Source of the DNA: Alphaproteobacteria bacterium
Lineage (GTDB): Bacteria; Pseudomonadota; Alphaproteobacteria; Micavibrionales; Micavibrionaceae
DNA: 55,581 bases
Direction: 5' to 3'
NCBI GenBank assembly: GCA_023150415.1
Contig: JAKLKY010000008.1
Location: forward strand, 1 to 55,581
Shown: one piece after another, positions 33,167 through 49,832 of the stretch
Layout of the letters: every line of letters starts with the position of its first letter
Numbering within the stretch: the first letter of the stretch is position 1
Program-made: the position numbers and the translations under genes
Notes under the pieces: model-generated
Told to the model about the DNA's origin: nothing
The model's database searches: none
Seen by the model: only the letters and a program-made list of their open reading frames with translations

Positions 33167-33622
33167 ATGATGATATCCCGATCCTCCTTCTATTCCCATC
33201 CGATCACCGCGATTAAGACCGTGCCGTTCGATTCTGTGGTCGAAGCCTGGTTCTGGTTCATCCAGGCCATGGCCGCCCGCAATGACGGCGCGCGCATCGC
33301 GGCGGGGCGTGCCCCCGTGCCGCGCCCGTGTGAGCCCACGGACATATTAAAGGTTCTGGATCGGCTGGTGCGCAACCGCCGCTTACTCAAGGAACATCTG
33401 CTGGTGTTGCGTCATTACGGGCGGCGGCTGATGGCGCCCGATCCGCGCCGGGTGAAAGAGGCGCGTGCCTATAAATTATGGGTCGAGGCTTTGGATGTCC
33501 TGCATGCGCCGCTGGTGCAAAAAGGAATCGTCGCCGCCAAGACTGCAGCGCGCCCCCACTGGGTGCGCGAAGCCTGCGTCTATGAACGGGAAGATATGGC
33601 AGAAGGGATGGCGGCGGAATGA
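33167..33622 (+). CDS. Hypothetical phage protein, first gene of the cassette
   Basis: 151 residues, basic, mostly helical, not recognised. Features: A-W-F-W-F-I-Q-A-M near residue 27 and an arginine-rich helix (L-D-R-L-V-R-N-R-R-L-L-K-E-H). The basic character could suit DNA binding or a role in packaging, but nothing specific is seen. It is the first gene downstream of the LexA-boxed promoter and overlaps the next gene by four bases, so its expression should follow SOS control. Two adjacent ATGs could serve as start. Confidence 0.65.
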   Translation: MMISRSSFYSHPITAIKTVPFDSVVEAWFWFIQAMAARNDGARIAAGRAPVPRPCEPTDILKVLDRLVRNRRLLKEHLLVLRHYGRRLMAPDPRRVKEARAYKLWVEALDVLHAPLVQKGIVAAKTAARPHWVREACVYEREDMAEGMAAE

Positions 33623-34089
33623 AAACCGGTTTTTCCCAATTGCAGGCTATGCGCGCCTGGGTCGTCTTCTCAGGGGAGACAGATTTGCCGTGGCTGGGGA
33701 TTCTCAAACGCGGCTTTCGTCACTGCTTTGTGATTTTGCATGATGGGCGGCAATGGATTTCCGTCGATCCGATGGCGCATAGCCTGGATATCTGCGCGCA
33801 TCCGCTGCCGGGTGATTTTGATTTGCCGGGCTGGCTGCGCGCGCGCGGGCACAAGGTTGTTGCGGCGCCTCTGGCCCGCGTCCGGCGCGAAGCGCCGTGG
33901 ATGCCGCTGACCTGTGTGGAGGTGGTGAAACGCATTCTGGGTCTGCACCAGCGTTTCATCCTCACGCCATGGCAGCTTTATCGGTATTTAGTAGATGGTC
34001 GCTGGTCGATGGTTATCGGCAGTGCTGACCAGCCGCTATCCACCATCAGCCAACCACTTTTAGAAGGAGATCTTGCATGGGAAGCCTAG
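33619..34089 (+). CDS. Possible permuted papain-like (NlpC/P60-like) phage protein
   Basis: 156 residues. The arrangement R-H-C-F-V-I-L near residue 34, followed by a strand with W-I-S-V-D-P and later P-L-T-C-V-E-V-V-K-R-I-L-G near 109, resembles the permuted NlpC/P60 cysteine peptidase fold in which the cysteine heads a helix. This is a motif guess, not a secure match. The last 30 or so residues are encoded by a word-repeat region (TGGTCGCTGG / CCAGCCGC), so the tail may be a repeat insertion. Its end overlaps the next gene. Confidence 0.55.
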   Translation: MKTGFSQLQAMRAWVVFSGETDLPWLGILKRGFRHCFVILHDGRQWISVDPMAHSLDICAHPLPGDFDLPGWLRARGHKVVAAPLARVRREAPWMPLTCVEVVKRILGLHQRFILTPWQLYRYLVDGRWSMVIGSADQPLSTISQPLLEGDLAWEA

Positions 34090-34310
34090 GATCACGTCCC
34101 AAAATTCCAAGTTACACCCCGCCGGCCTATACGCCGCCGCCTGCGCCCGCGCCGGAGCCGCAAGAGACAGCGGAAGAAAAAGCCGCGCAGCAACGCAAAC
34201 AAAACCTGCTGCAACGATCGCGCGGGCAGTTCGGCACAGTGCTGACCAGTTTTCGTGGGCTTCTGGGGCTTAACAGCGCGCCCGCCCGTAAAACCTTGCT
34301 GGGAGAATAA
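34077..34310 (+). CDS. Small proline-rich phage protein upstream of the portal
   Basis: 77 residues: a proline-rich N-terminal half (P-S-Y-T-P-P-A-Y-T-P-P-P), then a charged stretch, then R-G-Q-F-G-T-V-L-T-S-F-R-G-L-L and A-P-A-R-K-T-L-L-G-E. Small proteins with this kind of ending occur next to portal genes in podovirus-like prophages; their role is unknown to me. An AGAAGGAGATC ribosome site precedes the ATG; the stop is two bases before the portal gene. Confidence 0.75.
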   Translation: MGSLGSRPKIPSYTPPAYTPPPAPAPEPQETAEEKAAQQRKQNLLQRSRGQFGTVLTSFRGLLGLNSAPARKTLLGE

Positions 34311-34312
34311 GC

Positions 34313-35860
34313 ATGACCACAAAAACGAAAAAGGCAAAAACGGCGCGATCTTTGCCGGTCGTCGCTGCGCCGGATGAAGCGTTATTACACCCACTGATCG
34401 CGCGTTATCATGAGGCTCGTAAATCACGTGGCGCGTGGGAAAATCTCTGGCAGGAATGTTATGATTACGCCCTGCCGCAGCGCGGCGATTTTCTGAGCGC
34501 GTATCAACCAGGCCAGCGCCGCACCGATAAAATCTATGACGCCACGGCGATGGATGCCGCCGATCAACTGGCCGCCAGTTTGCTGGGTCATCTTACGCCC
34601 GCCTGGTCGCAATGGTTTGGCCTCAAGCCGGGGCCTGATTTGTCGCGCGCCGAGGCCGAGCGTCTGGCGCCCGTGTTGGAAAAGGCCGCGCGCACGATTC
34701 AAGATCATTTCGATCGCTCCAACTTCGCGGTGGAGATTCATCAATGTTATCTCGATCTCGTGGTTGGCGGCACGGCCAGCTTGTATTTCGCCGAAGCGGC
34801 GCCGGGCGGGTTCTCTGCCTTTCATTTCGCTGCCGTGCCGCTCAGCCAGGCGGTGCTGGGGGAGGGGGCGGGCGGCATGCTCGACACCACCTACCGCCGC
34901 ATGGATCTAACGCTGGAGCATTTGCAGTCGCGTTTTTCCGGCATTGAATTTCCTGCGCGCGTGATGCGCGAAGGTCTGCGCGATCCGCAGCAAACCTTCG
35001 CCGTAATCGAATCTGTCATGCCCGATGGGCTGGTCTATCTTTACCGCGCTGTGCTGGCGGAGGATGAAAGCAATCCGTTGCTGCTGGCGCAGGGGCGTTT
35101 TGCCAATGCGCCATTCATCAATTTCCGCTGGATGAAATCGCCCGGCGAGATTTACGGACGCTCGCCCGTGATGAAGGCGCTGCCCGATATCAAGACAGCG
35201 AATAAAGTTGTCGAGCTGATTTTGAAGAATGCGTCGATCGCCGTGACCGGTATCTGGCAGGCCGATGATGACGGCGTGCTTAATCCGGCGAATATCGAAC
35301 TTGTGCCCGGCGCTATCATTCCCAAGGCGGTGGGATCGCAAGGGCTGCAGCCGCTGGACATGCCGGGGCGGTTTGACGTGTCGCAGCTGGTGCTCGACAG
35401 TCTGCAAGCGCGCATCCGCAACGCATTGCTGGCTGACAAGCTGGCGCCCGTCATCAGCCCGCGCATGACGGCCACAGAAGTGCTGGAGCGTTCCGCCGAG
35501 ATGTCGTTGCTGCTGGGCGCGACGTATGGGCGCTTGCAGTCGGAATTGCTGACGCCGCTTATTGCGCGTGCGTTTGCCATTTTGCGGCGGCGCGGCGAGG
35601 TACCGGACATCAGCATCGACGGGCGTCTGGTTAGCGTCGATTACCGCTCCCCACTCGCCCGCGCGCAGGGACAGCGCAACGTGCAAAACACGATCAGCTG
35701 GCTGAATACCGTACTGGCGATGGGCCCGGCGGCGTCCGGCGCGGTGGATCTTGTTCAGGCTGCGCGGTTTCTGGGCGATGCGCTGGCGGTGCCATCAGAC
35801 CTGCTGCGCACGATGCCTGCACTCATTGACCCCACTTCCACAAACCAAAAGGAGATCTAA
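34313..35860 (+). CDS. Portal / head-to-tail connector, T7 gp8-like
   Basis: 515 residues of the podoviral head-to-tail connector family. Twelve copies form the ring through which DNA enters and leaves the capsid. Conserved features: W-E-N-L-W-Q-E-C-Y-D-Y-A-L-P near residue 40, then Y-D-A-T-A-M-D-A-A-D-Q-L-A, and the C-terminal T-A-T-E-V-L-E-R-S-A-E-M. Length matches T7-like portals. It opens the block that follows T7 virion gene order. Confidence 0.93.
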   Translation: MTTKTKKAKTARSLPVVAAPDEALLHPLIARYHEARKSRGAWENLWQECYDYALPQRGDFLSAYQPGQRRTDKIYDATAMDAADQLAASLLGHLTPAWSQWFGLKPGPDLSRAEAERLAPVLEKAARTIQDHFDRSNFAVEIHQCYLDLVVGGTASLYFAEAAPGGFSAFHFAAVPLSQAVLGEGAGGMLDTTYRRMDLTLEHLQSRFSGIEFPARVMREGLRDPQQTFAVIESVMPDGLVYLYRAVLAEDESNPLLLAQGRFANAPFINFRWMKSPGEIYGRSPVMKALPDIKTANKVVELILKNASIAVTGIWQADDDGVLNPANIELVPGAIIPKAVGSQGLQPLDMPGRFDVSQLVLDSLQARIRNALLADKLAPVISPRMTATEVLERSAEMSLLLGATYGRLQSELLTPLIARAFAILRRRGEVPDISIDGRLVSVDYRSPLARAQGQRNVQNTISWLNTVLAMGPAASGAVDLVQAARFLGDALAVPSDLLRTMPALIDPTSTNQKEI

Positions 35861-35863
35861 ACC

Positions 35864-36505
35864 ATGACTGACAATTTACTGACTGCTGATATTCCCGAAA
35901 AATTTAAAGACCCGCAGACGGGAACGCTGCGCACAGAGGCATTGCTGCAATCGTACCGCGAGCTGGAGAAGCGCCTCTCGCAGAGCCCGGCCGCGCCCAA
36001 ATCGCCCGATGATTACTGCATCGACTGCGCGCACGGCCTGTTTACGCCCGATACGCAAGTGAACCAACGCCTGCATGCCAAGGGCTTTACGCAGGATCAG
36101 GCGCAGGAAGTCTATAACATCGCGGCTGAGAAACTGGTGCCGATGATCCTGGAGGTGCAGGCCGAGTTCAAGGCTGATCGCGAGGTGGAGAAACTCGTCG
36201 CGCATTTCGGCGGCGCTGAACAATGGCGCGAAATCTCCCGCCAGTTGCTAGCCTTCGGCCAGCGCAATCTGCCGGCGGATGTGCTGGAGAACATGTCCTC
36301 ATCATATGAAGGCGTTCTGGCGCTGCAGCGCATGATGCAGGCGGAAGAGCCTTCGCTGGCCCGTTCCGGTGCGACGCGTCCGGCCGCGACGGATGAAAAA
36401 GACTTGCATGCGATGATGCGTGATCCACGCTACTGGCGCGAAAAAGATCCCGCCTTCGTAGCCAAGGTCACCGAAGGGTTTGAGAAGATGTACGCAAGCC
36501 GGTAG
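35864..36505 (+). CDS. Capsid scaffolding protein, T7 gp9-like
   Basis: 213 residues, acidic and helical, with the typical opening I-P-E-K-F-K-D-P-Q-T-G-T-L-R and a terminal helix V-A-K-V-T-E-G-F-E-K-M-Y. Scaffolds guide capsid assembly and leave before maturation. It sits between portal and capsid genes as gp9 does in T7. AGGAGATC precedes the ATG. A palindrome that can serve as a terminator follows the stop. Confidence 0.85.
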   Translation: MTDNLLTADIPEKFKDPQTGTLRTEALLQSYRELEKRLSQSPAAPKSPDDYCIDCAHGLFTPDTQVNQRLHAKGFTQDQAQEVYNIAAEKLVPMILEVQAEFKADREVEKLVAHFGGAEQWREISRQLLAFGQRNLPADVLENMSSSYEGVLALQRMMQAEEPSLARSGATRPAATDEKDLHAMMRDPRYWREKDPAFVAKVTEGFEKMYASR

Positions 36506-36531
36506 GTGGTGGTTAGTGATTAGTGGAAAAG

Positions 36532-36557
36532 GGGGCGCAGCGAAATCGTTGCGTCCC
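36532..36557. repeat. GGGGCGCAGCGA palindrome, terminator-like
   Basis: Arms GGGGCGCAGCGA and TCGTTGCGTCCC pair completely if two G-U pairs are allowed, around AA, and are followed by ATTTTTTTTG. It is a variant of the GGGGACGCAAC subfamily and is likely to end the portal-scaffold transcript. Confidence 0.8.
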
Positions 36558-36597
36558 ATTTTTTTTGTGAGGATTGAAAGATTTTTTAAAAAACAAC

Positions 36598-36626
36598 TTG
36601 ACGTTGAGTGACTTTTGTTCTATAGT
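36598..36626 (+). promoter_or_regulatory. Promoter upstream of the capsid gene
   Basis: TTGACG, a 17-base spacer, TATAGT. It would restart transcription after the terminator-like palindrome, but a hairpin terminator begins at the expected start site. Confidence 0.65.
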
Positions 36627-36635
36627 CATCTCATC

Positions 36636-36823: not shown

Positions 36824-37657
36824 ATGTCGACATCACTCGACCAGGCCTTCATCAAGCAATATGAACGCGAGGTGCATGAGGCCTTCCAACGCCAGGGCTC
36901 CAAATTGCGGGGCACGGTACGCTCTGTTACGAACGTCAATGGCTCGTCCGCCGTCTTTCAAAAAGTCGGCAAGGGGCTGGCGTCCACGAAATCAACACAT
37001 GGCATGGTGCCCGTGATGAATCTGGATCACACCAACGTGGAAATCACACTCACCGATTATTATGCGGGTGATTGGGTTGATCGTCTGGAAGAACTGAAAA
37101 CAAACATCAATGAACGTCAGGTGATTGCGAATGCCGGCGCCTATGCACTGGGCCGCAAGACAGATGAGTTGATTATCAACGCGCTGGCAACCGCATCGAC
37201 GAACGTCATCGTCGATAACAATGTGGGCATGACGCTGGATAAAATTCTGCAGGCGTTCGAGACATTCGGTAACAATGACGTCCCCGATGATAGTCAACGG
37301 TTCTGCGTGGTGGGATGGAAACAGTGGCGCGAGCTGCTGCAGCTCAAGGAATTTTCCAGCGCCGATTACGCTGGCTCGGAAAATCTGCCATTCAGCACCG
37401 TCACGCAGGCCAAGATGTTCCTAGGCTCTGTGTTCATTCCGCATTCGGGATTGCCGAAAGATGGGAGCGATATCCGCTCTTGCTTCTGGTATCACAAAAC
37501 CGCTGTCGGCCACGCCGCCAACAGCGATGTAAAAACCGACATCACCTGGCACGGCGACCGCGCATCGCACTTCGTGAACAATATGATGGGCCAGGGTGCG
37601 GGTCTGATCGACCAGGCTGGCATCGTCGTCATCAAATGCGATGAGACACCGGATTAG
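36824..37657 (+). CDS. Major capsid protein
   Basis: 277 residues of the podoviral coat protein family. Seen are an N-terminal helix with I-K-Q-Y-E-R-E-V-H-E-A-F, the strand V-E-I-T-L-T-D-Y-Y-A-G-D-W-V-D, and the long helix I-A-N-A-G-A-Y-A-L-G-R-K-T-D-E-L-I. Position after the scaffold agrees with T7 gp10. AGAGGTAAAGC precedes the ATG. The gene looks intact with no stops or shifts, which implies recent selection. Confidence 0.88.
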   Translation: MSTSLDQAFIKQYEREVHEAFQRQGSKLRGTVRSVTNVNGSSAVFQKVGKGLASTKSTHGMVPVMNLDHTNVEITLTDYYAGDWVDRLEELKTNINERQVIANAGAYALGRKTDELIINALATASTNVIVDNNVGMTLDKILQAFETFGNNDVPDDSQRFCVVGWKQWRELLQLKEFSSADYAGSENLPFSTVTQAKMFLGSVFIPHSGLPKDGSDIRSCFWYHKTAVGHAANSDVKTDITWHGDRASHFVNNMMGQGAGLIDQAGIVVIKCDETPD

Positions 37658-37757: not shown

Positions 37758-37997
37758 ATGGCTTACGTTTCCAACGATCTGAGCGTGCTGGCCTATGCCA
37801 ACAACTTTACGCTCTGGCACTACACCACGACCGATGCGTCCGTCACCAGCGCTGGCTATTTCAACAAGGCTAGCGAAATGATGCGCGTCAATGATCTGAT
37901 CATTGTGAATATCGACACCGACGGCACACCGTCAACAAAATTCTATGTCGTCACATCGAATACAGGCGGCGTTGTGGGGAGCACGCTCTATTCATAG
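37758..37997 (+). CDS. Small virion-associated protein after the capsid
   Basis: 79 residues, mostly beta strand, starting M-A-Y-V-S-N-D-L-S-V-L-A-Y-A-N-N and with G-Y-F-N-K-A-S-E-M-M-R-V-N-D. Proteins of this type lie next to the coat gene in several podoviral genomes and may decorate the head; I know no direct function. CCAAGGAGATTACC precedes the ATG. It is followed by a terminator. Confidence 0.75.
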   Translation: MAYVSNDLSVLAYANNFTLWHYTTTDASVTSAGYFNKASEMMRVNDLIIVNIDTDGTPSTKFYVVTSNTGGVVGSTLYS

Positions 37998-38079: not shown

Positions 38080-38080
38080 G

Positions 38081-38169: not shown

Positions 38170-38739
38170 ATGCCCCTGACCGATATTGCCCTGTGCTCGC
38201 GCGCGTTGATCCGCATTGGCGCCGCGCCCATCACCGCGTTCGACGATGAAAGCGCTGAGGCGGAAATTTCCGGCGCGCTTTATGCTCCGGCGCGCGATGC
38301 GCTGCTCTCATCCTATCCGTGGAGTTTTGCCAGCGGCCAGGTTGCACTTTCGCTGTTGCCCGAGGCACCGCTCGCCGATTACCCCTACGCGTTCGGCCTG
38401 CCCAGCGATTTCCTGCGCGCCATTTCCGTGGGCACCGGCAGCAAAGGGCGCGGCCTGAACTACCGCATCGCGCGCTCCGCCCTGCACACATTTTCCGACA
38501 GCGCCGTGCTGACCTATGTTTTTCGCCCGGATGAAAGCGAATTTCCGCCCTATTTCGATCAGGCGCTGATTGCGCGTCTGGCCGCGGAATTCGTGATTCC
38601 GGTGACAGAAAACACCAGCCGCGCTGAAGCCTTGTTTGCTCTGGCGGAAAAGGAATTCCAGCGCGCCCGGCAAATCGACGCGCAGCAAGACTCTCCCAAC
38701 CGGATTGAGAATTTCAGTTTGATTGATGCGCGGGGGTAG
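38170..38739 (+). CDS. Tail tubular protein A, T7 gp11-like
   Basis: 189 residues of the podoviral gatekeeper family that attaches below the portal. Typical N-terminus M-P-L-T-D-I-A-L-C-S-R-A-L-I-R-I-G, then A-R-D-A-L-L-S-S-Y-P-W-S-F-A, and L-P-S-D-F-L-R-A-I-S-V. Length and position match gp11. A cargo block starts three bases after its stop, separating it from the gp12-like gene that normally follows. Confidence 0.92.
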   Translation: MPLTDIALCSRALIRIGAAPITAFDDESAEAEISGALYAPARDALLSSYPWSFASGQVALSLLPEAPLADYPYAFGLPSDFLRAISVGTGSKGRGLNYRIARSALHTFSDSAVLTYVFRPDESEFPPYFDQALIARLAAEFVIPVTENTSRAEALFALAEKEFQRARQIDAQQDSPNRIENFSLIDARG

Positions 38740-38742: not shown

Positions 38743-39663
38743 ATGGTTTTTGAATTTATCCGAAATGGACTCCTTCAAAATAATGTTGGCAACAATATGA
38801 TTAACAAGGAAAGAGATGTCAAAAAAGTCAAAGAAATTATGAGTCGTCTAGGCAGGTTTGATAATGCCAAATCCCCTGAGCCACATGGAATTATTACACG
38901 GGAGCTTGATCAGTCTATTAAAACGTTTCAGAAAGAGAATAACTTAAAAATTGATGGAATTATGCATCCAAAAGGGGAAACAGAAACAGCTCTGATTGAC
39001 ACGATGTTATATAAGACGGTCCGCAATGGATTAAATTTTTCAGATTTGGAGGAAGAGGATGAAGAAGAAAGTTTACCGCCTGTTCCTCCTCAGAAACCGG
39101 AGCCGCCATCAGACATCACCCCTGAAGAGGAGGATCCGAAGGAATCTCCTGATATTCCACAAGATGAGCCTAAGCATGATTGCAGTCATTTACAGACTGC
39201 ACTAGACAACGCTGAGGCCGCTTTACAACAGAAAGAAGAAGCCTTAGAGCAAGCTTCCACGCAGATTGAAGCGAAGAGAACACAATTGGAATCAAAAATT
39301 TCTGAATTAGAGCAAGAACTGGATGCAATGAAAGCCGCGAAAACACCAACAGATATAGCTGTAACAACTATAGGCATTGCAAGCGGTGCACTAGGCGGTG
39401 GATTGATAGGCTCTATTGGCGGGCCTGGAGGAGCAGCAGTTGGCATATTGACAGGGGGTCATCGGGGTATGGACATTGCAGATGAGGCAAGAGAAGAAGT
39501 CAGTAAAAATATCATGCTTAAAGAAATTGAAATAGAGCAATTGCAATCTCAGCTTGACCAGCTTGATGGAGCGCTAGAAGCGTTTGAGAACGAGGTATCC
39601 GCAGCAGAATCTTTGGTTTCAGAAGTTGAAATCGCTCTAGAACAATGCGAACTATCAGAGTAA
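38743..39663 (+). CDS. Peptidoglycan-binding, coiled-coil, glycine-zipper protein (cargo)
   Basis: 306 residues, AT-rich and unlike the neighbouring virion genes in codon use. Order: a peptidoglycan-binding-like three-helix domain (about 32-85, with A/S-I-K-T-F-Q-K-E-N-N-L-K-I-D-G), an acidic proline-rich linker (102-145), a coiled coil (148-198), a glycine-zipper hydrophobic segment (205-240, G-G-G-L-I-G-S-I-G-G-P-G-G) and a second coiled coil (250-302). The build suggests a membrane-inserting, wall-binding protein. It may replace the missing ejection proteins (gp15, gp16) or be a moron; both are inference. Confidence 0.65.
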   Translation: MVFEFIRNGLLQNNVGNNMINKERDVKKVKEIMSRLGRFDNAKSPEPHGIITRELDQSIKTFQKENNLKIDGIMHPKGETETALIDTMLYKTVRNGLNFSDLEEEDEEESLPPVPPQKPEPPSDITPEEEDPKESPDIPQDEPKHDCSHLQTALDNAEAALQQKEEALEQASTQIEAKRTQLESKISELEQELDAMKAAKTPTDIAVTTIGIASGALGGGLIGSIGGPGGAAVGILTGGHRGMDIADEAREEVSKNIMLKEIEIEQLQSQLDQLDGALEAFENEVSAAESLVSEVEIALEQCELSE

Positions 39664-39664: not shown

Positions 39665-40045
39665 ATGGCTCAATACAATCTAAATATTCTAAAGGTTCAG
39701 ATGAGCATCAAAGACGTCATCCGCGACACAGCCTTCATTTTTTTTCTGACCTATTGGAGCGGTTTTGTTATGGGTTATGCAGGGCTCATGAATAATCCTT
39801 ACATATTTCTTACAGTGAGTTATGCTGTGGTCTTTTCAGGATTTTGCCTTATTATCTCATGGACGCCCTCAAACGCATTACAGCGCATACTTTCTGTTGC
39901 AGCGCTGTTATGGCTTTTGACCGCTTCGGAACATTTTCCTCGTGGATATTATAAAGAATGGATGATATCAGGCGTGGCCGTTTTTGCCATGGCACTGCTG
40001 AGCTTGTATGGAGCATCTTGCTTAAAGAAGATTTTGAAACCTTAA
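39665..40045 (+). CDS. Hypothetical membrane protein, 126 aa (cargo)
   Basis: Four hydrophobic helices (about residues 17-42, 46-66, 73-92 and 97-122), no recognised family. It starts one base after the preceding stop, so the two are probably translated together; M-S-I-K-D-V, 12 codons later, has a better ribosome site. The pairing with the peptidoglycan-binding protein suggests a shared envelope function. It is followed by a terminator, making this a self-contained two-gene unit. Confidence 0.6.
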   Translation: MAQYNLNILKVQMSIKDVIRDTAFIFFLTYWSGFVMGYAGLMNNPYIFLTVSYAVVFSGFCLIISWTPSNALQRILSVAALLWLLTASEHFPRGYYKEWMISGVAVFAMALLSLYGASCLKKILKP

Positions 40046-40217: not shown

Positions 40218-40248
40218 TTGACTCTCTCTCTCTCTCTTGCTTTATGAT
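40218..40248 (+). promoter_or_regulatory. Possible promoter with a (CT)8 spacer tract
   Basis: A -35 TTGACT (40218-40223) and a -10 TATGAT (40243-40248) are separated by 19 bases, most of them a (CT)8 dinucleotide tract (40222-40237). Loss of one CT would give the optimal 17. Slippage in such a tract could switch the gene downstream on and off. The tract is plain; the promoter is inferred. Confidence 0.45.
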
Positions 40249-40282
40249 AAACAGAAATCAACTGCTTAAGGAAGGAAGAGAT

Positions 40283-41059
40283 ATGACAGACAAAAACAAA
40301 GAAGGAAAATCTGATGCTATTACAAAAAATTGTTCTCCTTCGGCCATAGCCAAAATGATGCGGTTCGTTCTTACGACGGATATAGAAGAAACGACAATAA
40401 TTGATGATCCGAAGGTTGATGTGTTTGATAAGTATAAAAGAGCTCAAGAATTGATAGATACAATAGAGCGGAAAATACAACAACTTGACGAGAATAAAGT
40501 TGGCGTATTCAATGGAATTATTATTGTTAATGATATAGATAATATCACAGATAAGGATGGTAAATATTACGATCCCTTGCTCCCTATTGCCTGGATATGT
40601 AAATCATTTAATGAAATAGCATATATTTGCAATAAAAATGAAGAACTTCATAGTTTTTTTAAGGATAAATTATTGAGTAAATTTACTTCTGACGGTTCTA
40701 CCAGTGGAAGTTTTAGTAACGGTGCTACAATTGAAAGTTTTAGAATGTATTCTTATTATCTTGCACTGTTGAGAGCACAGTTAGGACAAAATATAACAAG
40801 CGACTTTGTGTCAATTGATGTTGCAGTTGAAATTTTAAATGAGGCAATCAAAGTTGGCGCATTGGATTCTGATGGCATAAAACGATCTCTAGAAGATAGT
40901 TACGAGTCTGATGCTGAGGTTGATTTCGTTAATGGGGGTTGGCCTGGATTAACTAAAGAAGAAGACGATGCATATCGAGATGCAATTGCCAGAATTGGAA
41001 TTGATAGTTCTGATGAGGAGCCCGAGTCAGATTCTAAGCCAGAACCCGGGCTTGGCTAG
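40283..41059 (+). CDS. Hypothetical protein, 258 aa (cargo)
   Basis: Not recognised. AT-rich, soluble and acidic, with a mostly helical N-terminal half (Y-K-R-A-Q-E-L-I-D-T-I-E-R-K-I) and a low-complexity acidic tail (S-S-D-E-E-P-E-S-D-S-K-P-E-P). The start at M-T-D-K-N-K-E has a strong GGAAGGAAG ribosome site; an ATG 13 codons upstream falls inside the possible promoter's -10 region. It has its own candidate promoter with a CT tract and a terminator after it, so it forms a separate expression unit within the virion gene block. Confidence 0.6.
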   Translation: MTDKNKEGKSDAITKNCSPSAIAKMMRFVLTTDIEETTIIDDPKVDVFDKYKRAQELIDTIERKIQQLDENKVGVFNGIIIVNDIDNITDKDGKYYDPLLPIAWICKSFNEIAYICNKNEELHSFFKDKLLSKFTSDGSTSGSFSNGATIESFRMYSYYLALLRAQLGQNITSDFVSIDVAVEILNEAIKVGALDSDGIKRSLEDSYESDAEVDFVNGGWPGLTKEEDDAYRDAIARIGIDSSDEEPESDSKPEPGLG

Positions 41060-41306: not shown

Positions 41307-43229
41307 ATGACACGCTTACGCGAGATCAAGACGAATTTCACGGCTGGCGAAGTCTCGCCTGATTTGCTGGGGCGCGGGGATTTGCGCGCGTATGAGAACG
41401 GCGCGCTGGCGCTGCGCAATGTTTTCATCAAGCCGACGGGCGGGGTAAGCCGTCGTTCCGGCCTTGCGTTCGTCGACACGGTGGCGGGCGTGGGGAAACT
41501 GGTGGCGTTTGAATTCAACACGCAGCAGACGTATTTGTTGGTGCTGACGGACTCGCAGATTGCGATTTATCTGGGCGGCATGCTGGAGGAAACTGTGATC
41601 GCGCCGTGGAATGTGGAGCAGATCACGCAGCTGGTCTGGACGCAAAGCGCGGATACGATGCTGTTCACCCATCCCGATCTGCCGCCCAAGAAACTGACGC
41701 GCAGCGCAGGCGGTACCTGGAGCTTAAGCGACTGGAATTTTTTCACCGACAAGAACGTGATTTATCAGCCCTTCTTCAAATTTGCGGACTCACAAATTAC
41801 GCTGACGCCGAGCGCGACGACGGGCACGATCACGCTTACGGCATCGTCCGCCGTGTTCGAGGCGGGGCATGAAAACACGCGTTTATTCGTCGCGGGGCGG
41901 CAGGTGCAGATCACAGATTACGATTCCCCGACTGTGGTCACGGGCACCGTCATTCAGGAGGAAGACGAGGACGGCGATCTTACCGGCCTGCCCAACACCG
42001 ATGCGACGATCGACTGGGCCGAGCAGGCGTTCAGCCCTGTGCGCGGCTATCCCGCCACGGTGGCCTTCCATCAAGACAGGCTGGTGATTGGCGGCAGTCG
42101 GGACCTGCCCAACCGTCTGTGGTTTTCAAAATCAGGTGATCTATTCAATTTCGACCTGGGTGAGGGGCTGGATGATGAAGCCATCGAATTTGCGATCCTG
42201 TCCGATCAGGTTAACGCAATTCGCGGCATATTCTCCGGCCGGCATTTGCAGGTGTTCACATCGGGCGCGGAATGGATGGTGACGGGTGATCCACTGACGC
42301 CGACGGCGGTGCAGATCCGCAGGCAAACGCGCATCGGTTCGGTGGTGGAGCGTTATATTCCGCCCGTGAATGTCGATGGTGCGACGCTGTATGTGGCGCG
42401 CAACAGGCAGGAAATTCATGAGTTTTTGTATACGGATGTGGAGCAGGCCTATAGCTCGTCCGATCTGTCTTTGCTGTCGCGGCATATCATCGCCGATCCA
42501 CGCGATCAGGATTTCGATCAGAAGCGGCGCTTGCTGTTCCTGGTGCGCGGCGACGGGAAATTCGCGACGCTCACCATTTACCGCTCGGAACAGGTGGCGG
42601 CATGGACAGTGCATGAAACCGATGGTGCTGTGCAATCGGTGGCGGTGGTGGGCGATGAGGTTTATCTGCTGATCACGCGCGGGGAGAATATCACGATCGA
42701 GCAATTCGATGATGCGTTTTATCTCGACTCGGCGCTGGCGGGGGAAGTGATGGAGCCCGCCACCACATGGTCGGGTCTGGATCATCTGGAAGGGCAGAGT
42801 GTGGCGATCATCGCCGATGGTGTTCCCGTTGGCAACAAAACTGTGACGAGCGGCGAGGTGGTGCTGGATGATCCGGCGCTGAGCGTTCAGATCGGCCTGC
42901 CCTTCACGCACCGTATTGAGCCGCTGCCGCCCAGTGATATCGGCAATGCCGGCTCGGGGCGGCGTGTGCGGCTGGTGCAAGGGATCTTCCGGGTACAGGA
43001 CACGGCGGCGTTGCGTCTTGATGTCGGGCGTGGGCTAAAGGATGTGCCGCTGCGCCAATTCGGCGCGCCGATCCTTGACGCGCCGCCACCGCTCACCAGC
43101 GGTGATATCCGCGTGCGCGCGCTGGGCTGGCAGAACGACACGACCAAGGCGCTGTGGCGGATTGAGCAAGATGCGCCGCTGCCTTTTACGTTGCTGTCGG
43201 TGTCGACGGAATTGAAAGTGAATGATTAA
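41307..43229 (+). CDS. Tail tubular protein B / tail nozzle, T7 gp12-like
   Basis: 640 residues. The opening T-N-F-T-A-G-E-V-S-P-D-L-L-G-R-G-D and N-G-A-L-A-L-R-N-V-F-I-K-P-T-G-G-V is the signature of podoviral nozzle proteins, and P-A-T-V-A-F-H-Q-D-R-L-V-I-G-G-S and W-F-S-K-S-G-D-L-F-N-F are conserved in the central beta-propeller. The protein forms the tail tip through which DNA leaves. CCAAGGAAAAC precedes the ATG. Confidence 0.92.
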   Translation: MTRLREIKTNFTAGEVSPDLLGRGDLRAYENGALALRNVFIKPTGGVSRRSGLAFVDTVAGVGKLVAFEFNTQQTYLLVLTDSQIAIYLGGMLEETVIAPWNVEQITQLVWTQSADTMLFTHPDLPPKKLTRSAGGTWSLSDWNFFTDKNVIYQPFFKFADSQITLTPSATTGTITLTASSAVFEAGHENTRLFVAGRQVQITDYDSPTVVTGTVIQEEDEDGDLTGLPNTDATIDWAEQAFSPVRGYPATVAFHQDRLVIGGSRDLPNRLWFSKSGDLFNFDLGEGLDDEAIEFAILSDQVNAIRGIFSGRHLQVFTSGAEWMVTGDPLTPTAVQIRRQTRIGSVVERYIPPVNVDGATLYVARNRQEIHEFLYTDVEQAYSSSDLSLLSRHIIADPRDQDFDQKRRLLFLVRGDGKFATLTIYRSEQVAAWTVHETDGAVQSVAVVGDEVYLLITRGENITIEQFDDAFYLDSALAGEVMEPATTWSGLDHLEGQSVAIIADGVPVGNKTVTSGEVVLDDPALSVQIGLPFTHRIEPLPPSDIGNAGSGRRVRLVQGIFRVQDTAALRLDVGRGLKDVPLRQFGAPILDAPPPLTSGDIRVRALGWQNDTTKALWRIEQDAPLPFTLLSVSTELKVND

Positions 43230-43243: not shown

Positions 43244-43324
43244 ACCGCCAAGGCGCCATAGACGCCAAAAAAATCGCCAAGAGAATCATTCTTGGGATGC
43301 TTGGCTTGTTGGCGCCTTGGCGGT
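43244..43324. repeat. ACCGCCAAGGCGCCA long inverted repeat
   Basis: Perfect 15-base arms at 43244-43258 and 43310-43324, with a nested hairpin (CCAAGA / TTCTTGG). Word structure (GGCGCC, CCAAG) resembles the other hairpin repeats. Lies between two virion genes. Confidence 0.9.
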
Positions 43325-43359
43325 TCCCTGCACATATTCTTGAGAGAAAGGAAACAATC

Positions 43360-43848
43360 ATGGGATCGTTTGAACGTGTTTTGAGTTTTATACCGATGGC
43401 GCAAACGGGCCTCGGCTTCCTTGATGATCGCAGTGCCGAAGATCAGGCCATTGCACAGCTGCAGGCGCGCCAGGATGAGAATTTGCGGCAGCTGGAGCAA
43501 AATGCCGCGCTGGATCGCGCAACGCTGGCGGCGCAATCCAAACAGGCGGAGCAAAATCGTTTGGCAGCGCTGCGCCGCGCGGTGGCGCGTCAGCGCGCGC
43601 AGTTTGGCGGGCAGGGGATCGGCGTGGAAGGCGGATCGCAAAACGCGGTGATGCTGGGCCTGTTCGATGAATCCGAGGACGAGCGTGAACAGCGCGAGAA
43701 AATGGATGCCCTGCGCGAAAACGCCATCAATCAGAATCTAGAACAACAACGCAGCCTGAACGTGCTGCAGCGTGAACAGCTCCGCCAGCGGCAGAAATTG
43801 GGACGCACGCGCTCATGGCTGGATCTGGCGGGCGGGGTGTTGTTTTAA
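43360..43848 (+). CDS. Internal virion protein, T7 gp14-position
   Basis: 162 residues, rich in Q, A, R and L and almost wholly helical (A-I-A-Q-L-Q-A-R-Q-D-E-N-L-R-Q-L-E; R-Q-R-A-Q-F-G-G-Q-G-I-G-V-E-G-G-S). Proteins of this build follow the nozzle gene in podoviruses and act as gp14-like internal or ejection proteins, with G-G-Q-G-I typical. The start at M-G-S-F-E-R-V has an AAAGGAAAC ribosome site; a longer frame upstream would run through the inverted repeat. gp15 and gp16 homologues, which normally come next, are absent. Confidence 0.75.
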   Translation: MGSFERVLSFIPMAQTGLGFLDDRSAEDQAIAQLQARQDENLRQLEQNAALDRATLAAQSKQAEQNRLAALRRAVARQRAQFGGQGIGVEGGSQNAVMLGLFDESEDEREQREKMDALRENAINQNLEQQRSLNVLQREQLRQRQKLGRTRSWLDLAGGVLF

Positions 43849-43926: not shown

Positions 43927-45954
43927 ATGACCGACCACATCAAGATGCCGGATGTGACGCCGATTGTGCGTTACCTGGCCGATGGCGAGCAGACCACGTT
44001 TGCCTATCCGTTTCCGATTTTCGCCTCCGAGGATCTGGGCGTTTACATCGACGGCGCGAAGCAGGTGAGCGGATACGCCCTCACCGGCGCGGGCGTAACG
44101 GGCGGCGGCGACGTGACATTTGAAACGCCGCCTGCCGATGGTGCGCTGGTGACGCTGGCGCGCGAATTGCCGATCGAGCGCGTGACGGATTATCTGGAAG
44201 GCGGCGATTTTTCCGCCAATTCGATCAACACGGAACTTGATTATCTGGTGGCTGCGCTGCAGCAGGTCGACCGCGCCAATGATCTTACGCTGCGCTACAG
44301 CGATTTCGAAGCGCCGGGCGATGCCGTGTTGCCGACCAAAGCCTTGCGCGCGAACAAGGCGCTGGGGTTTGATGGTGATGGCAATCCCGTGGCTGTATCG
44401 CTGGAAGGCTCGATGGCCGCGCCGGATTTCACGGCACAAGGCACGGGGGCGGTGACGCGCACGGCGACGGATAAGCTGGGCGATCTGATTTCTGTGAAAG
44501 ATTTCGGCGCGGCGGGCGACGGCATCACGGACGACACGCTGGCGTTTCAGAAGGCGCTGGCGGTGCATGATGCGATCCTGATCCCGCGCGGCGTGTTTTT
44601 GATTACGGGCACGGTGTCGCTGGACACACGCAAATCCCTCATTGGTCTGGGCCAGCGCAGCGTCATCAAGGCGCAGAGCAACAGTTTCTTTGCCCTTGAA
44701 ATTCCCGCGGGTTTCACAACCGTCAGCAATCTGCGCATCGAAGGCGGGCTGGTCGGCATCAAGCTGTGGGGCAAGGATGCCGAATGCGTGCAGAACACGG
44801 TTTCCGACGTGCAGATCATCGGTGCGGCGACGGGTATCGTGCTGGACGGGTATAATGATACGAACAAGCCATGCTACTGGAACCATTTTTCCCGTGTGCT
44901 TATCGAGCAGCCGACGTTGCACGGTGTGCATATGATCCGCACCGGCGTGGGCGACACGCCGAATGCAAATAGATTTTACGCGGTGCGGGTCTTTTCAAAG
45001 AGCGCGCCGACGACGGGCAGCGGTTTTTACGTCGAACATGGCGCGTTCAACAACAGCTTCGTCGATTGCGAGGCAAATGTGAACGGCCCCACGGCGCATT
45101 CGTGTTTTCGCATTGGCGCGGGCAGCAACAAGACGATGCTGATTAACCTGCTGACGGAATCCACCAACACGGTGCCGAATGTACGGCTGGATGCGGGATC
45201 CGTTGAAACCATCATTATGAACCTTACGGCCACCAGCGATGGTGCTGCGATTTACGATTTCTCCGGCGGGAATTACGAGGCGCTGAATGCCGGGTTTCCT
45301 GTAAAAAATCGCATGCGCAAAACCAGCGTGACGGATCTGAACACGACGCTGCAGCGCTTCGACACGGAATTCATCGACACGCCGGGCACGGTGGCGCTTG
45401 ATCTTTCGCATTCCGTGCATATTGTCAACGCCACCAGCGGCGCGATCACCACGACCTTACCCGCCGCGGCAGACGCCGTGGGCGTGCAGATGACGGTGAA
45501 GAAGGTCGACGGAACGGCCAACATCGTCACCGTCAACGAAGATAGCGGGCCGGGGCCGGATGGAAAAGAAATTCAGCTCGGCGGTGCGAATGATTTTGTG
45601 ACGATCTTATCCAATGGCGCCAGCTGGTTTATCACGGCTTCAAACCGCCAGTCGGCGAATACGCGCTATCACGACGGCACGGGCACGTATGATATCGACA
45701 TGGCGGTGGATACGTATCTGCTCTCCAGCTTTGGTGGCCCGATGACAGCGCGCCTGCCGCCGGCGGATGCGACGGAGTCGATCGGGCGTTGCATCACCAT
45801 CAAGAAGACCGATCTCTCCGGCAACGCCATCACCGTGACGGAACAGGGTGGCACCGGGCCCGACCAGTCGCCGCAATCTTTATCAGCGCAGTGGCAATCC
45901 ATCACCGTGCTGTCCAACGGCGCAGATTGGTATGTGACGGCGCGGTATCCGTGA
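43927..45954 (+). CDS. Tail spike, T7-fibre-like N-terminus and pectate-lyase fold
   Basis: 675 residues. Residues 1-130 match the podoviral tail-attachment domain (V-R-Y-L-A-D-G-E-Q-T-T-F-A-Y-P-F; L-E-G-G-D-F-S-A-N-S-I-N-T-E-L-D). From about 175 the V-K-D-F-G-A-A-G-D-G-I-T-D-D-T motif starts a right-handed beta-helix of the pectate-lyase superfamily, typical of polysaccharide-binding or cleaving spikes. The C-terminus holds two tandem modules (about 489-573 and 588-675) sharing L-S-N-G-A-x-W-x-x-T-A. The target is probably a surface polysaccharide of a related cell. Confidence 0.88.
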   Translation: MTDHIKMPDVTPIVRYLADGEQTTFAYPFPIFASEDLGVYIDGAKQVSGYALTGAGVTGGGDVTFETPPADGALVTLARELPIERVTDYLEGGDFSANSINTELDYLVAALQQVDRANDLTLRYSDFEAPGDAVLPTKALRANKALGFDGDGNPVAVSLEGSMAAPDFTAQGTGAVTRTATDKLGDLISVKDFGAAGDGITDDTLAFQKALAVHDAILIPRGVFLITGTVSLDTRKSLIGLGQRSVIKAQSNSFFALEIPAGFTTVSNLRIEGGLVGIKLWGKDAECVQNTVSDVQIIGAATGIVLDGYNDTNKPCYWNHFSRVLIEQPTLHGVHMIRTGVGDTPNANRFYAVRVFSKSAPTTGSGFYVEHGAFNNSFVDCEANVNGPTAHSCFRIGAGSNKTMLINLLTESTNTVPNVRLDAGSVETIIMNLTATSDGAAIYDFSGGNYEALNAGFPVKNRMRKTSVTDLNTTLQRFDTEFIDTPGTVALDLSHSVHIVNATSGAITTTLPAAADAVGVQMTVKKVDGTANIVTVNEDSGPGPDGKEIQLGGANDFVTILSNGASWFITASNRQSANTRYHDGTGTYDIDMAVDTYLLSSFGGPMTARLPPADATESIGRCITIKKTDLSGNAITVTEQGGTGPDQSPQSLSAQWQSITVLSNGADWYVTARYP

Positions 45955-46002
45955 CGATCGGTAGCAAGTAACCAGAAGCCAGTAACGAGAAAAGGAAACT
46001 TG

Positions 46003-46337: not shown

Positions 46338-46342
46338 TTGCT

Positions 46343-46888
46343 ATGTTTCAGCAATCGACACTTGCTCCGGCCTTTGTTAAAGCACGATGTGCCTATGAGC
46401 GCAGCGTAGATCCGGCACGGCCTATGGATTCGATTGCATCGTTGATGGAGGCGCAGTCTTATCTAGCGCAGATTTATCAAGAAATAGGGCGAGATCGGGC
46501 TGTTACGCTTAAGGCATGGCATGCGATTGATGTAAATAATCCCTCTGAGGCTTGGTATACGGCGGTGCGAACTTATGCTTATTTTTACGCGTCGCTAATG
46601 AAAGGAATGGGAGAGTTTTCACCGCTTTTTAATAAAAATTGCTCCTCTGAAATTCGGGCGGCTCTGGGTCTTCCGATTCTGGTAGGTCTTTACAGCGGAG
46701 CCAAATGTGATCCGTCGGCTTCACCAACATTAGGTTTACGTTCGGCGCTTTTAGATCTCAAATTTGATTTGGGACTGCTAAATTATGAGGTAGATGATAA
46801 AACATGGATATCATTAGGAATAAGTCCAAGGGCAATTAAAAATTTGGAGCAACAACCTACTTTCCCTGATCTTATTTTGGCGAATTAA
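46343..46888 (+). CDS. Hypothetical protein, 181 aa (cargo)
   Basis: Not recognised. Soluble, helical, AT-richer than the virion genes. It has Y-L-A-Q-I-Y-Q-E-I-G-R-D-R near residue 36 and A-L-G-L-P-I-L-V-G-L-Y-S-G-A-K near 112. No ribosome site is visible before the ATG. A strong terminator follows, so with its candidate promoter it forms a second independent unit inserted between virion genes, just ahead of the terminase. Confidence 0.55.
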   Translation: MFQQSTLAPAFVKARCAYERSVDPARPMDSIASLMEAQSYLAQIYQEIGRDRAVTLKAWHAIDVNNPSEAWYTAVRTYAYFYASLMKGMGEFSPLFNKNCSSEIRAALGLPILVGLYSGAKCDPSASPTLGLRSALLDLKFDLGLLNYEVDDKTWISLGISPRAIKNLEQQPTFPDLILAN

Positions 46889-46936
46889 ACACTTCTGCAA
46901 GTGATTGAAAATTATTTCTTATACGCTTTGTAAATT

Positions 46937-46960
46937 CCCCCGCCGTGTGCGGGGTTTTTT
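46937..46960 (+). terminator. Intrinsic terminator before the terminase gene
   Basis: CCCCGC, loop CGTGT, GCGGGG, then T6. It would end the cargo transcript 40 bases before the terminase start. Confidence 0.85.
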
Positions 46961-46999
46961 ATTGTCCGCATCACAACCTTGTTTCAGGAACCCAAATGC

Positions 47000-48487
47000 A
47001 TGACCAAAACACCGACGATGACCGAAGCCGATTTCACGCTGTTCACCGTGCTGTGGAACCAGCGCCAGAATATGCGTACGCCTGCCGTTCATTTCACAAT
47101 GGCGCGCTGGCTGGAGGCGATGAACGCGTTGGCCAATCCACGCCTGTTGCTGCAGGCGTTTCGCGGCAGCGGCAAGAGCACGATTGCGGGGCTGTTTGCG
47201 GCGTGGATTTTGTATCGCAATCCGGATTTGCGCATCCTTGTCATCGCGGCGGATGAGGCGCTGGCGGCCAAGATGGTGCGCAACGTCAAACGCATTCTGG
47301 AACGTCATCCGCTGACCGCGCATCTCAAGCCAAAGACGGCTGAGGAATGGGGAGGGGACCGTTTCACCGTGCAGCGCTGGCTGGCGCTGCGCGATCCCTC
47401 CATGCTGGCCAAGGGGATCGGCGCGAATGTCACGGGCACGCGCGCGGATGTGATTATCTGCGACGACGTTGAAGTGCCGAATACAAGCGACACCGCGCAT
47501 AAGCGCCTTGAACTGCGCGAGCGGCTGGCAGAGCTATCCTTTATCCTCACCCCCGGCGGGACAATGTTATATCTGGGCACGCCGCATAGCTATTACACGA
47601 TTTACGCCGATGCACCGCGCGCCGAGATCGGAGAGGAGCGCGTGTTTCTGCACGGGTATGTGCGACTATCGCTGCCGATTATTGACGGCAACGGAGAAAG
47701 CGTCTGGCCGGAGCGATTTACGCAGGCACAGGTGAAGCAAATTCTGACCACGTCCGGCCCTGCGCGTTTTGCCTCACAAATGTTGTTGCAGCCACGCAAT
47801 ATCGCACAGGCGCGGCTCGATCCCGCTTTGCTGAATTTCTACGATGAGGAAATCAACTATACGCGCGAACTACAAAGTCTGTTTATCGGAGGGCGCAAGA
47901 TGGTCTCCGCAAGCGCATGGTGGGATCCGGCCTTTGGCTCCGCCACCGGCGACCGCAGCGTCCTGGCCGTGGTGTATGCAGACGGCGAGGGGCGGCTTTA
48001 TCTGCACAGGGTAGTGTATTTGAAGATCAATCTTTTACCTGAGGAAAACGAAGCCCAGCACCAATGCCGCATCATCGCCGCACACGCCAAGGAATTTTAT
48101 CTGCCCTCCGTCACCGTGGAAACCAATGGCATTGGAAAATTTCTTCCGGGGTTGCTGCGCAATGAAATGGCGCGTTCAAAAACCCCTTGCAGCGTGGTGG
48201 AGGCCATCAGCCGCCGGAAGAAAGAAGAGCGCATTCTTGAATCCTTTGAGGTTCTGCTGGCGGCGCGGCGGCTGTATGTGCATCGCAGTCTTCAGAAATC
48301 ACCCTTTATGGCCGAGATGCAGGAATGGCAGGCCGATGGCGGCGCGTGTCATGATGACGGGCTGGATGCCGCCGCCGGCGCGCTGTCGCAGCAGCCCATG
48401 CGCCTGGCGCGCCTTTACGGTTCCGGCGCGCAAGGCTGGATGCAGGCTGCACGGCCTATGCAGGGCAAAACAGAGTTTGAGGTGTAA
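47000..48487 (+). CDS. Large terminase subunit, T7 gp19-like
   Basis: The ATP-driven motor and nuclease that cuts DNA and packs it into heads; about 495 residues from M-T-K-T-P. ATPase motifs: Walker A A-F-R-G-S-G-K-S-T near residue 53, Walker B D-V-I-I-C-D-D-V-E near 153 and the coupling motif Y-L-G-T-P-H near 192. The nuclease domain has acidic sites in W-W-D-P-A-F-G and D-D-G-L-D-A. A possible start seven codons upstream exists. All catalytic residues I can check are intact, so packaging should be possible. Confidence 0.93.
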   Translation: MTKTPTMTEADFTLFTVLWNQRQNMRTPAVHFTMARWLEAMNALANPRLLLQAFRGSGKSTIAGLFAAWILYRNPDLRILVIAADEALAAKMVRNVKRILERHPLTAHLKPKTAEEWGGDRFTVQRWLALRDPSMLAKGIGANVTGTRADVIICDDVEVPNTSDTAHKRLELRERLAELSFILTPGGTMLYLGTPHSYYTIYADAPRAEIGEERVFLHGYVRLSLPIIDGNGESVWPERFTQAQVKQILTTSGPARFASQMLLQPRNIAQARLDPALLNFYDEEINYTRELQSLFIGGRKMVSASAWWDPAFGSATGDRSVLAVVYADGEGRLYLHRVVYLKINLLPEENEAQHQCRIIAAHAKEFYLPSVTVETNGIGKFLPGLLRNEMARSKTPCSVVEAISRRKKEERILESFEVLLAARRLYVHRSLQKSPFMAEMQEWQADGGACHDDGLDAAAGALSQQPMRLARLYGSGAQGWMQAARPMQGKTEFEV

Positions 48488-48489
48488 TC

Positions 48490-48813
48490 ATGTCTTTTCT
48501 TCAAAATGATCTTGTCTGGTGGATCACAGCGATCGAGGTGCCGGTGCTTGCCGGCTTGTTCGGCTTGATCTGGCACGTCCGCCAGGATTCTGAAACTGCT
48601 TGCGACGATTTGCAGACGCAGATGGAGCGGCGCTGTGAGCAGCTGCGCGAGGCGCTCTCGGCGTTCAAGCTTGAGGTAGCGAAAACCTATGCCTCGCAAA
48701 CTGATTTACGCGATCTGGAAGGACGGCTTGTAAGCCATCTTCTACGCATTGAATCAAAGCTCGATGCGACGGCCCTGAAGGCCGAGGCGGCGCGGGCGAA
48801 AATTTCAACTTAA
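48490..48813 (+). CDS. Small membrane/coiled-coil phage protein
   Basis: 107 residues: one hydrophobic helix near the N-terminus (about 8-28, V-W-W-I-T-A-I-E-V-P-V-L-A-G-L-F-G-L) followed by a long helical, charged region. Position at the head of the lysis genes suggests a spanin- or holin-accessory role; not recognised further. It starts two bases after the terminase stop. Confidence 0.65.
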   Translation: MSFLQNDLVWWITAIEVPVLAGLFGLIWHVRQDSETACDDLQTQMERRCEQLREALSAFKLEVAKTYASQTDLRDLEGRLVSHLLRIESKLDATALKAEAARAKIST

Positions 48814-48831
48814 ATATCAAAGGAGTTACTA

Positions 48832-49311
48832 ATGAAAAAACCAACACTGACGGCGTTGGACAGCAAGGTGCTGTCCGATGCAAAAGCACATGAATTTTAC
48901 AAGACCATGGAATGCGACGTACTGGCGCGTACGCTGTGGGGCGAGGCGCGGGGGGAGGGTAGCATTGGTATGATCGCCGTTGCCTGCGTCATCTTCAACC
49001 GTGTGCGCATCGCGCAGGAGAAGGGCGGTTACTGGTGGGGAAACAATGTTATTCAGGTCTGCCAGAAACCATATCAGTTTAGTTGTTGGAACCGCAGCGA
49101 TCCAAATTTCCAGAAGCTGCAGGCGGTTGATGAAAACGATTTATATTTTTCCACCGCCAAGCGCATTGCCCAACGGGCGCTGGCGGGCGTGCTGAGCGAT
49201 CCCACAGCGGGCGCGACGCATTACCATGCGACGGGGATTGTACCGCCGTGGGCGCGGTCGGAAAAACCGTGTGCGGTGATTGGTGCACATATTTTTTATC
49301 AACTGGTGTAG
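48832..49311 (+). CDS. Cell wall hydrolase, SleB-like (endolysin)
   Basis: 159 residues with the Hydrolase_2 (SleB) catalytic domain: L-A-R-T-L-W-G-E-A-R-G-E-G near residue 32, A-V-A-C-V-I-F-N-R-V and A-T-H-Y-H-A in the C-terminal part. The glutamate in G-E-A-R-G-E is the likely catalytic residue. It would cleave host peptidoglycan to free particles. CAAAGGAGTTACTA precedes the ATG. No signal peptide, so release needs the holin next door. Confidence 0.88.
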   Translation: MKKPTLTALDSKVLSDAKAHEFYKTMECDVLARTLWGEARGEGSIGMIAVACVIFNRVRIAQEKGGYWWGNNVIQVCQKPYQFSCWNRSDPNFQKLQAVDENDLYFSTAKRIAQRALAGVLSDPTAGATHYHATGIVPPWARSEKPCAVIGAHIFYQLV

Positions 49312-49313
49312 CC

Positions 49314-49832
49314 ATGCTCGCTCCCCTCATCACTAAAATCGGTGCGCCGGTGCTGGTGAATATATTGTCTGACGTTTTGCGCGGCGTGGATAATCCGCTG
49401 ACGCAGGGCGCGGCGGCGGCGTTGAAACAAGTTGATGCCGCTTTGAAATCTGGCGATGTTGACGCGCAGGCGCTGCAGACGCATCTGGAGAAGATGGCGC
49501 AGATCGAAAGCGATGAACACAAAGCCCAGGTGTCGCAGGTGAACCAATCTTTGCGCGCCGAAGTCGCGTCCGAGGATGCGTATGTGCGCCGCATGCGCCC
49601 GACTTTCGGCTATCTGATGGCGATCACCTGGGCGGCGCAGATGATGGGTCTGGCCTATGTGATTGTGTTTGAAACAGCGCAGGCGGGCGCGGTTCTGAAC
49701 GCCATGAGTTCCTTGAGCGCGATCTGGGCGGTGGGGTTATCGGTGCTTGGCATTTACGTCTATAAGCGCAGCGAGGACAAAAAACTCATTCCCCGCCCGC
49801 CGGGGCCGGAGACAATTTTTTGGAATCGATAA
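49314..49832 (+). CDS. Holin of the 3-TM superfamily
   Basis: 172 residues: a helical N-terminal half (L-T-K/Q-I-G-A-P-V-L, coiled coil about 40-85), then R-R-M-R-P-T-F-G-Y-L-M-A-I-T-W and hydrophobic helices (about 97-150), the usual Holin_3TMs pattern, with a basic K-R-S-E-D-K-K tail. The start M-L-A-P-L-I-T lies two bases after the endolysin stop; a longer overlapping frame is ignored. It is the last gene of the cassette. Confidence 0.85.
   Translation: MLAPLITKIGAPVLVNILSDVLRGVDNPLTQGAAAALKQVDAALKSGDVDAQALQTHLEKMAQIESDEHKAQVSQVNQSLRAEVASEDAYVRRMRPTFGYLMAITWAAQMMGLAYVIVFETAQAGAVLNAMSSLSAIWAVGLSVLGIYVYKRSEDKKLIPRPPGPETIFWNR

Follow-up and report, generated by a model that had tools for sequence, protein, structure and literature searches.

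Gene content of the cassette

The window, by which we mean the whole stretch of 55,581 nucleotides analysed here, is a contig of a 1.9-Mb genome and carries no tRNA gene. HMM scans show that an intact virion and lysis cassette spans positions 33167-49832, with MreB, an EAL protein, NADK and pyrE as its left neighbours and NhaA, isocitrate dehydrogenase (IDH), an acyltransferase and FolD as its right neighbours. Its gene order is o151, o156, o77, portal, scaffold, capsid, o79, gp11-like, three variable genes, gp12-like, o183, spike, o181, TerL, o107, endolysin and holin, and the features are as follows.

33097..33124 (+): predicted cassette promoter, TTGACA - 16 nt - TATAAA (sequence)
33129..33143 (+): LexA/SOS box, GAACATTAATAGAAC, directly 3' of the -10 element; sole exact match in the window
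33167..33622 (+): o151, conserved first gene, all-helical, function unknown (alignment)
33619..34089 (+): o156, conserved, with invariant RHC...C motif residues (alignment)
34077..34310 (+): o77, small phage protein ahead of the portal (phrog_831, E 2e-6)
34313..35860 (+): portal, T7 gp8-like head-tail connector (PF12236, E 1.9e-141)
35864..36505 (+): scaffold or capsid assembly protein, gp9-like (PF05396, E 7e-15)
36598..36626 (+): predicted second promoter, TTGACG-17-TATAGT, 5' of the capsid gene (scan)
36824..37657 (+): major capsid protein (PF19821, E 8e-81; alignment)
37758..37997 (+): o79, small conserved phage protein (phrog_18004)
38170..38739 (+): gp11-like tail tube protein (phrog_394, E 1e-45)
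38743..39663 (+): o306, peptidoglycan-binding and coiled-coil, variable slot (PF01471)
39665..40045 (+): o126, variable slot, unknown (no HMM match; homologue in relative G038 only)
40244..41059 (+): o271, variable slot, unknown (no HMM match)
41307..43229 (+): gp12-like tail nozzle protein (phrog_376, E 2e-148)
43297..43848 (+): o183, gp14-like internal virion protein (alignment; family members match phrog_805 and phrog_418)
43927..45954 (+): tail spike (phrog_1640 at the N-terminus; PF12708)
46343..46888 (+): o181, window-specific unknown ORF (no match in HMM scans or relatives)
46979..48487 (+): large terminase, TerL (phrog_38, E 2e-86)
48490..48813 (+): o107, small conserved protein after TerL (phrog_29007; weak match to phrog_462, lipoprotein)
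48832..49311 (+): endolysin, cell wall hydrolase (PF07486, E 3e-21)
49248..49832 (+): holin, GTA_holin_3TM family (PF11351, E 4e-10)

An earlier, sequence-only reading of this DNA had named the portal, scaffold, capsid, gp11- and gp12-like proteins, spike, TerL, endolysin and holin as present and intact, and the HMM scans agree. Its assignment of a gp14-like protein is weak for o183 taken alone, but the proteins in the same slot of relatives match 'internal virion protein' families. The T7 gene order that it described is approached but not reproduced, the 3' end consisting of TerL followed by o107, endolysin and holin. It had also seen no RNA or DNA polymerase, primase, integrase or repressor; no integrase, polymerase, primase, recombinase or repressor was matched by HMM scans among the cassette ORFs of the window, and a further 76 slot ORFs that were scanned, of which 72 came from relatives, contained no replication-, integration- or repressor-type genes either. 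No small terminase was identified in the cassette, and gp15 and gp16, the large ejection proteins of T7, are missing. It thus meets neither the criterion for a temperate prophage (integrase, repressor or replication genes alongside virion genes) nor that for a T7-like podovirus (its own RNA/DNA polymerase and the gp14-15-16 ejection proteins, of which a gp14-like protein alone is kept). One criterion for a gene transfer agent (GTA), that of particle proteins derived from a caudoviricete, is met on the HMM scans.

Several of the smaller proteins remain without an assigned role. For o151 there is no PHROG, Pfam or phage match, and its model (pLDDT 85) gives no significant fold match in PDB or viral libraries; o156 has distant relatives in Vibrio phages (tblastn, E down to 1e-12) and no significant fold match in a structure search of the PDB. 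Homologues of o306 occupy differing positions in relatives, and o107 is possibly lysis-related, judging by its weak family match. The spike combines a T7-fibre-type N-terminus with a pectate-lyase-like domain. A divergent ORF of 145 aa (32350-32787, minus strand) adjoins the cassette promoter and has no match in the cassette regions of 30 relatives.

TerL retains its Walker A motif (GxGKST) and acidic residues across 48 sequences, implying that DNA packaging is its likely task. This bears on whether the particle genes might have been exapted for a role that does not involve DNA, such as a protein delivery capsid or a storage compartment. Several slot proteins are of unknown function, which leaves room for such a role, but there is no direct evidence for it and TerL, portal and tail are all kept, with the TerL catalytic motifs conserved; we regard it as the least probable of the explanations considered.

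Distribution and chromosomal location

Within the host's order (Micavibrio relatives), 106 of the 142 genomes sampled have the portal gene, as do 84 of the 98 good genomes and 42 of 54 genera. It is nearly always single-copy, with identities mostly of 55-75%; a few distant matches at 27-32% identity probably represent ordinary phages. The capsid profile matches 102 of the 142 genomes. In most of the 30 relatives with long contigs, the cassette lies between NADK-pyrE and (NhaA)-IDH-FolD and its core genes follow the same order, the extra genes being confined to a few preferred slots. The synteny that had been proposed as a check is thus present, relatives holding the same cassette in the same chromosomal slot.

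Across the class as a whole (385 genomes), about 58 genomes have a capsid match at E < 1e-100 and one more has a partial match, with a gap to phage-like matches and in single copy except for one fragmented case. These carriers belong to many families and include genomes of 0.9-1.4 Mb. Named carriers beyond the order include Azospirillum, Magnetospirillum and Telmatospirillum. The cassette is missing from several families of the order; since losses and truncations occur, it is not essential. The capsid gene was not found in the plasmid collection searched.

The cassette is split in several genomes: a portal-scaffold block is separated from a capsid-tail-TerL block, and the frames of both are open. 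The distance between them is 76 kb in G026, 134 kb in G358, 153 kb in G315 and 244 kb in G440, rising to 1.2 Mb in G517 and 1.6 Mb in G337, and in three further genomes (G042, G065 and G246) the blocks are on different contigs. Such a split arrangement cannot be packaged as one element, packaging in one piece being impossible where the blocks are more than 1 Mb apart. The capsid has a size that is usual among phages holding 30-40 kb, so the unsplit cassette, at 16.7 kb, might fit one head. With its fixed slot and split loci, the cassette meets a second GTA criterion, that the genome be fully endogenised, often at several loci.

Inheritance and selection

Trees of five concatenated cassette proteins and of rpoB, each for 52 genomes, are strongly congruent. 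The Mantel correlation is 0.854, a value not reached in any of 2000 permutations, and is 0.768 when only the family of the window is considered. The two trees have 24 of 49 splits in common, compared with 0.23 expected from label shuffles. Among 35 well-supported cassette splits, eleven are contradicted by supported rpoB splits, and some horizontal exchange or tree error is therefore not excluded. The cassette proteins evolve at about twice the rate of RpoB. In the window genome itself, rpoB (G000:C19:8344-12491) is found as three frame-broken pieces, and the assembly therefore probably holds indel errors.

Rough Nei-Gojobori estimates of dN/dS from five close pairs within the order are 0.02-0.18 for portal, capsid, gp11, gp12 and TerL, within the range found for pyrE, NADK, IDH and FolD in the same pairs and at comparable dS. 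Some accessory genes have higher values, as does one pair from a large-genome family, G192/G486 (0.28-0.45). Lengths are similarly constrained: the capsid is within 15% of 277 aa in 56 of 57 genomes and gp11 within 15% of 189 aa in all 55, most being exactly 189; gp12 likewise varies little in length. Internal stops at capsid ends, as in G315 and G410, appear to be terminal stops and were rejected as lesions. Cassette GC follows flanking GC (r = 0.95), as for ameliorated DNA. Purifying selection on the structural genes, the other proposed check, is accordingly evident at a level like that of the flanking genes, and the frameshifts in relatives that would have told against domestication are, like deletions, limited to a small part of the genomes, namely G012, G109, G119 and a few fragments. 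From the trees and dN/dS, a third GTA criterion, mostly vertical inheritance with co-diversification with the host, is met.

Could the cassette instead be a prophage remnant or a satellite, repeatedly gained and lost? Some copies are decayed, one genome (G101) carries two, and a closely related capsid gene is present in some phages, all of which would fit. Repeated gain is hard to reconcile, however, with the same slot and co-divergence over an order, low dN/dS, the lack of integrase and replication genes, the split loci, and the failure to find the capsid gene on plasmids. The congruent trees and shared slot already contradict this explanation, and we consider it very improbable. Slot, tree congruence, low dN/dS and the lack of linked replication or integration genes support the domesticated particle that the sequence-only reading had proposed.

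Relationship to phages and viral contigs

The pelagiphages HTVC010P and EXVC031P Hodr, together with T7, share the portal, scaffold, capsid, gp11 and gp12 families with the cassette, in the same order. They differ in being free phages with many further genes, among them large ejection proteins. Hodr is the closest complete phage (capsid 48% and portal 34% identical to the window), and in it ejection proteins of 783 and 1247 aa adjoin the gene at the gp14 position. A search of 19 relatives for the 1247-aa protein, of gp16 size, gave no match, although this is only weak negative evidence.

Capsids 64-71% identical to the cassette capsid occur in a few metagenomic phages, of which some have a primase; the portal, gp11 and gp12 of these phages are mostly at 25-43%. 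Four phage-like contigs, L353 (10001-10828), L355, L377 and L382, show this pattern, with capsids at 64-71% and portal, gp11 and gp12 at about 25-34%, and the L353 capsid nests among those of the order. This placement suggests exchange of the capsid gene between phages and GTA-like cassettes. Relatives with the cassette joined to replication or integration genes, which would have spoken against a domesticated element, were not found; the real phages share the capsid gene only.

Many contigs catalogued as viral in IMG/VR are probably parts of this element. Among the 'viral' contigs there that have the present capsid (L343-L416), 73 of the best 80 resemble fragments of GTA-like cassettes, a call based on the identity of portal, gp11, gp12 or TerL, and some cassette-like contigs carry host flanks (NADK-pyrE). 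Likewise MT838907.1 (L418), a 5-kb 'unverified Bacteriophage sp.' from human faeces with capsid 61% and portal 55% identical to the window, probably represents part of a cassette from an alphaproteobacterium of the gut. One candidate for a linked integration gene, a tyrosine recombinase about 3 kb upstream on metagenome contig L384, was rejected; host-type moaA-like and DUF364 genes separate it from the cassette. Other S24 and integrase matches exist among the viral-contig ORFs; they were placed only for L384, and a siphovirus-type capsid lies beside L369.

Regulation

In 29 of 30 genomes of the order, a TTGAC element is located 48-137 bp 5' of o151, and a LexA/SOS box of the form GAACN7GAAC occurs within 350 bp upstream of o151 in 26 of the 30, compared with 0.2 in shuffles. 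GTTC and GAAC are the alphaproteobacterial LexA motif forms used in PMC6473078. In the whole window 1.25 exact matches are expected by chance, so for the window's own box it is position and conservation that carry weight. Outside the order, 14 of 35 loci have a box less than 200 bp from o151 (hand count), including those of Azospirillum soli and Telmatospirillum, and a box is also found at the separate capsid locus of G192.

A second element, a 16-bp inverted-repeat operator TAGGAN6TCC(C/T)(A/T), precedes o151 in 21 of 30 genomes, and an operator of the TAGGAN6TCCTA type stands ahead of the capsid gene in 16 of 33, among them G026, where the capsid locus is a separated one. No exact copy of the operator is present in the window genome; the capsid-side operator of its relatives corresponds in place to the window's predicted second promoter. 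CtrA control was rejected, TTAAN7TTAA being at background (1 of 30, against 0.9).

Control by DNA damage would also suit a domesticated weapon or altruistic lysis device of the PBSX type, which packages host DNA and kills neighbours and delivers no usable DNA. Besides the SOS box at the promoter, the absence of gp15/gp16 by comparison with Hodr and the presence in the slots of variable genes for peptidoglycan-binding and endolysin-like proteins could be read in this way, as could the biology of the hosts, some Micavibrio being epibiotic predators. Weapon specificity genes usually diversify, however, whereas the spike is conserved over the order (mostly 52-66% identity, dN/dS 0.05-0.1). TerL and the head genes are fully retained, and ComEC is nearly universal, being present in 95 of the 98 good genomes of the order, this one included, although its presence is only permissive for delivery. 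We regard such a device as unlikely.

Proposed function and relationship to known gene transfer agents

We conclude, with a probability of about 0.78, that the cassette is a GTA domesticated long ago from a podovirus of the T7/HTVC010P type. This is a judgement from comparative genomics, in which packaging and transfer are inferred and neither particles nor their DNA have been observed. Also telling against it are the losses and truncations, the unidentified small terminase, the possibility that an unsplit cassette fits one head, and the cassette splits that disagree with rpoB. Under the definition in PMC9662315 the cassette is a GTA candidate, three of the six features being met; we use that wording for this reason, and because random host-DNA content and delivery need experiments.

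In the mechanism that we envisage, DNA damage would lead to LexA cleavage, and the cluster would be expressed in a minority of cells. Scaffold, capsid, portal and TerL would build heads filled with host DNA, gp11, gp12, the gp14-like protein and the spike would form a short tail, and endolysin and holin would lyse the producer. The particle may then carry DNA across the outer envelope only, into the periplasm, from which the recipient would, by hypothesis, import it through ComEC as in natural transformation; recipients may use it for recombinational repair. Periplasmic delivery with ComEC uptake is inferred because gp15/gp16 are gone and ComEC is present. The same loss could mean that perhaps no DNA is delivered at all.

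Few lineages are known to have GTAs, and in Alphaproteobacteria those whose genes have been identified are either RcGTA-like or BaGTA. The RcGTA-like elements (Rhodogtaviriformidae) resemble the cassette in being alphaproteobacterial, vertically inherited and under purifying selection, with a head-tail cluster that lacks replication genes and partly split loci; they differ in their siphovirus derivation and HK97-type head. BaGTA of Bartonella is likewise an alphaproteobacterial domesticated particle, with a different phage ancestry and run-off replication. The RcGTA marker GTA_TIM (PF13547) is found in none of the 142 genomes of the order, so that the criterion of RcGTA homology is not met, and none of the 36 class genomes (of 385) that have it carries the present capsid, compared with 5.5 expected (P 0.002, relatedness ignored). 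LexA-type sites have been predicted in the promoter of the Dinoroseobacter GTA (PMC6473078).

The suggestion that a podoviral GTA would be new has been overtaken in part. The podovirus-like FpGTA of Faecalibacterium, with two separated operons and about 8.5 kb of packaged host DNA, was reported in 2026 (PMC12946183), but of the present element we found no description in the literature searched. FpGTA shares with it the podovirus-like character and separated loci; it differs in being confined to one genus of Firmicutes, and no link to the present lineage is established, no FpGTA sequence having been compared.

Going further, we favour by a modest degree the proposal that a T7-type podovirus was domesticated independently at an early stage of the class and gave rise to a third class of alphaproteobacterial GTA. 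On this view its SOS control is direct, it and RcGTA exclude each other, and the inner-membrane part of the T7 ejectosome has been lost because the particle need only deliver to the periplasm, uptake being completed by ComEC. If true, a second ancient GTA, podoviral and complementary to RcGTA, would imply repeated and persistent domestication of particles in one class, and would bear directly on which selection keeps GTAs. Model hosts are at hand in Azospirillum and Magnetospirillum, with DNA damage as inducer and TerL and ComEC as targets for a genetic test.

The cassette may also explain old reports of particles with 10 kb of host DNA in Azospirillum. A. lipoferum and strain B510 are reported to yield small, mitomycin C-induced particles with random host DNA of about 10 kb (Boyer 2008, cited in PMC3899980), for which siphovirus-like clusters were proposed as the source. 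The genus carries the present cassette, with a LexA box in some species, and a link between the two is at this stage a hypothesis, strain 4B not being covered. As a separate observation, Azospirillum cassettes (L169, L182, L189 and other loci) have an EAL-domain gene, c-di-GMP phosphodiesterase-like, between scaffold and capsid, about 4.2-4.5 kb after the portal start.
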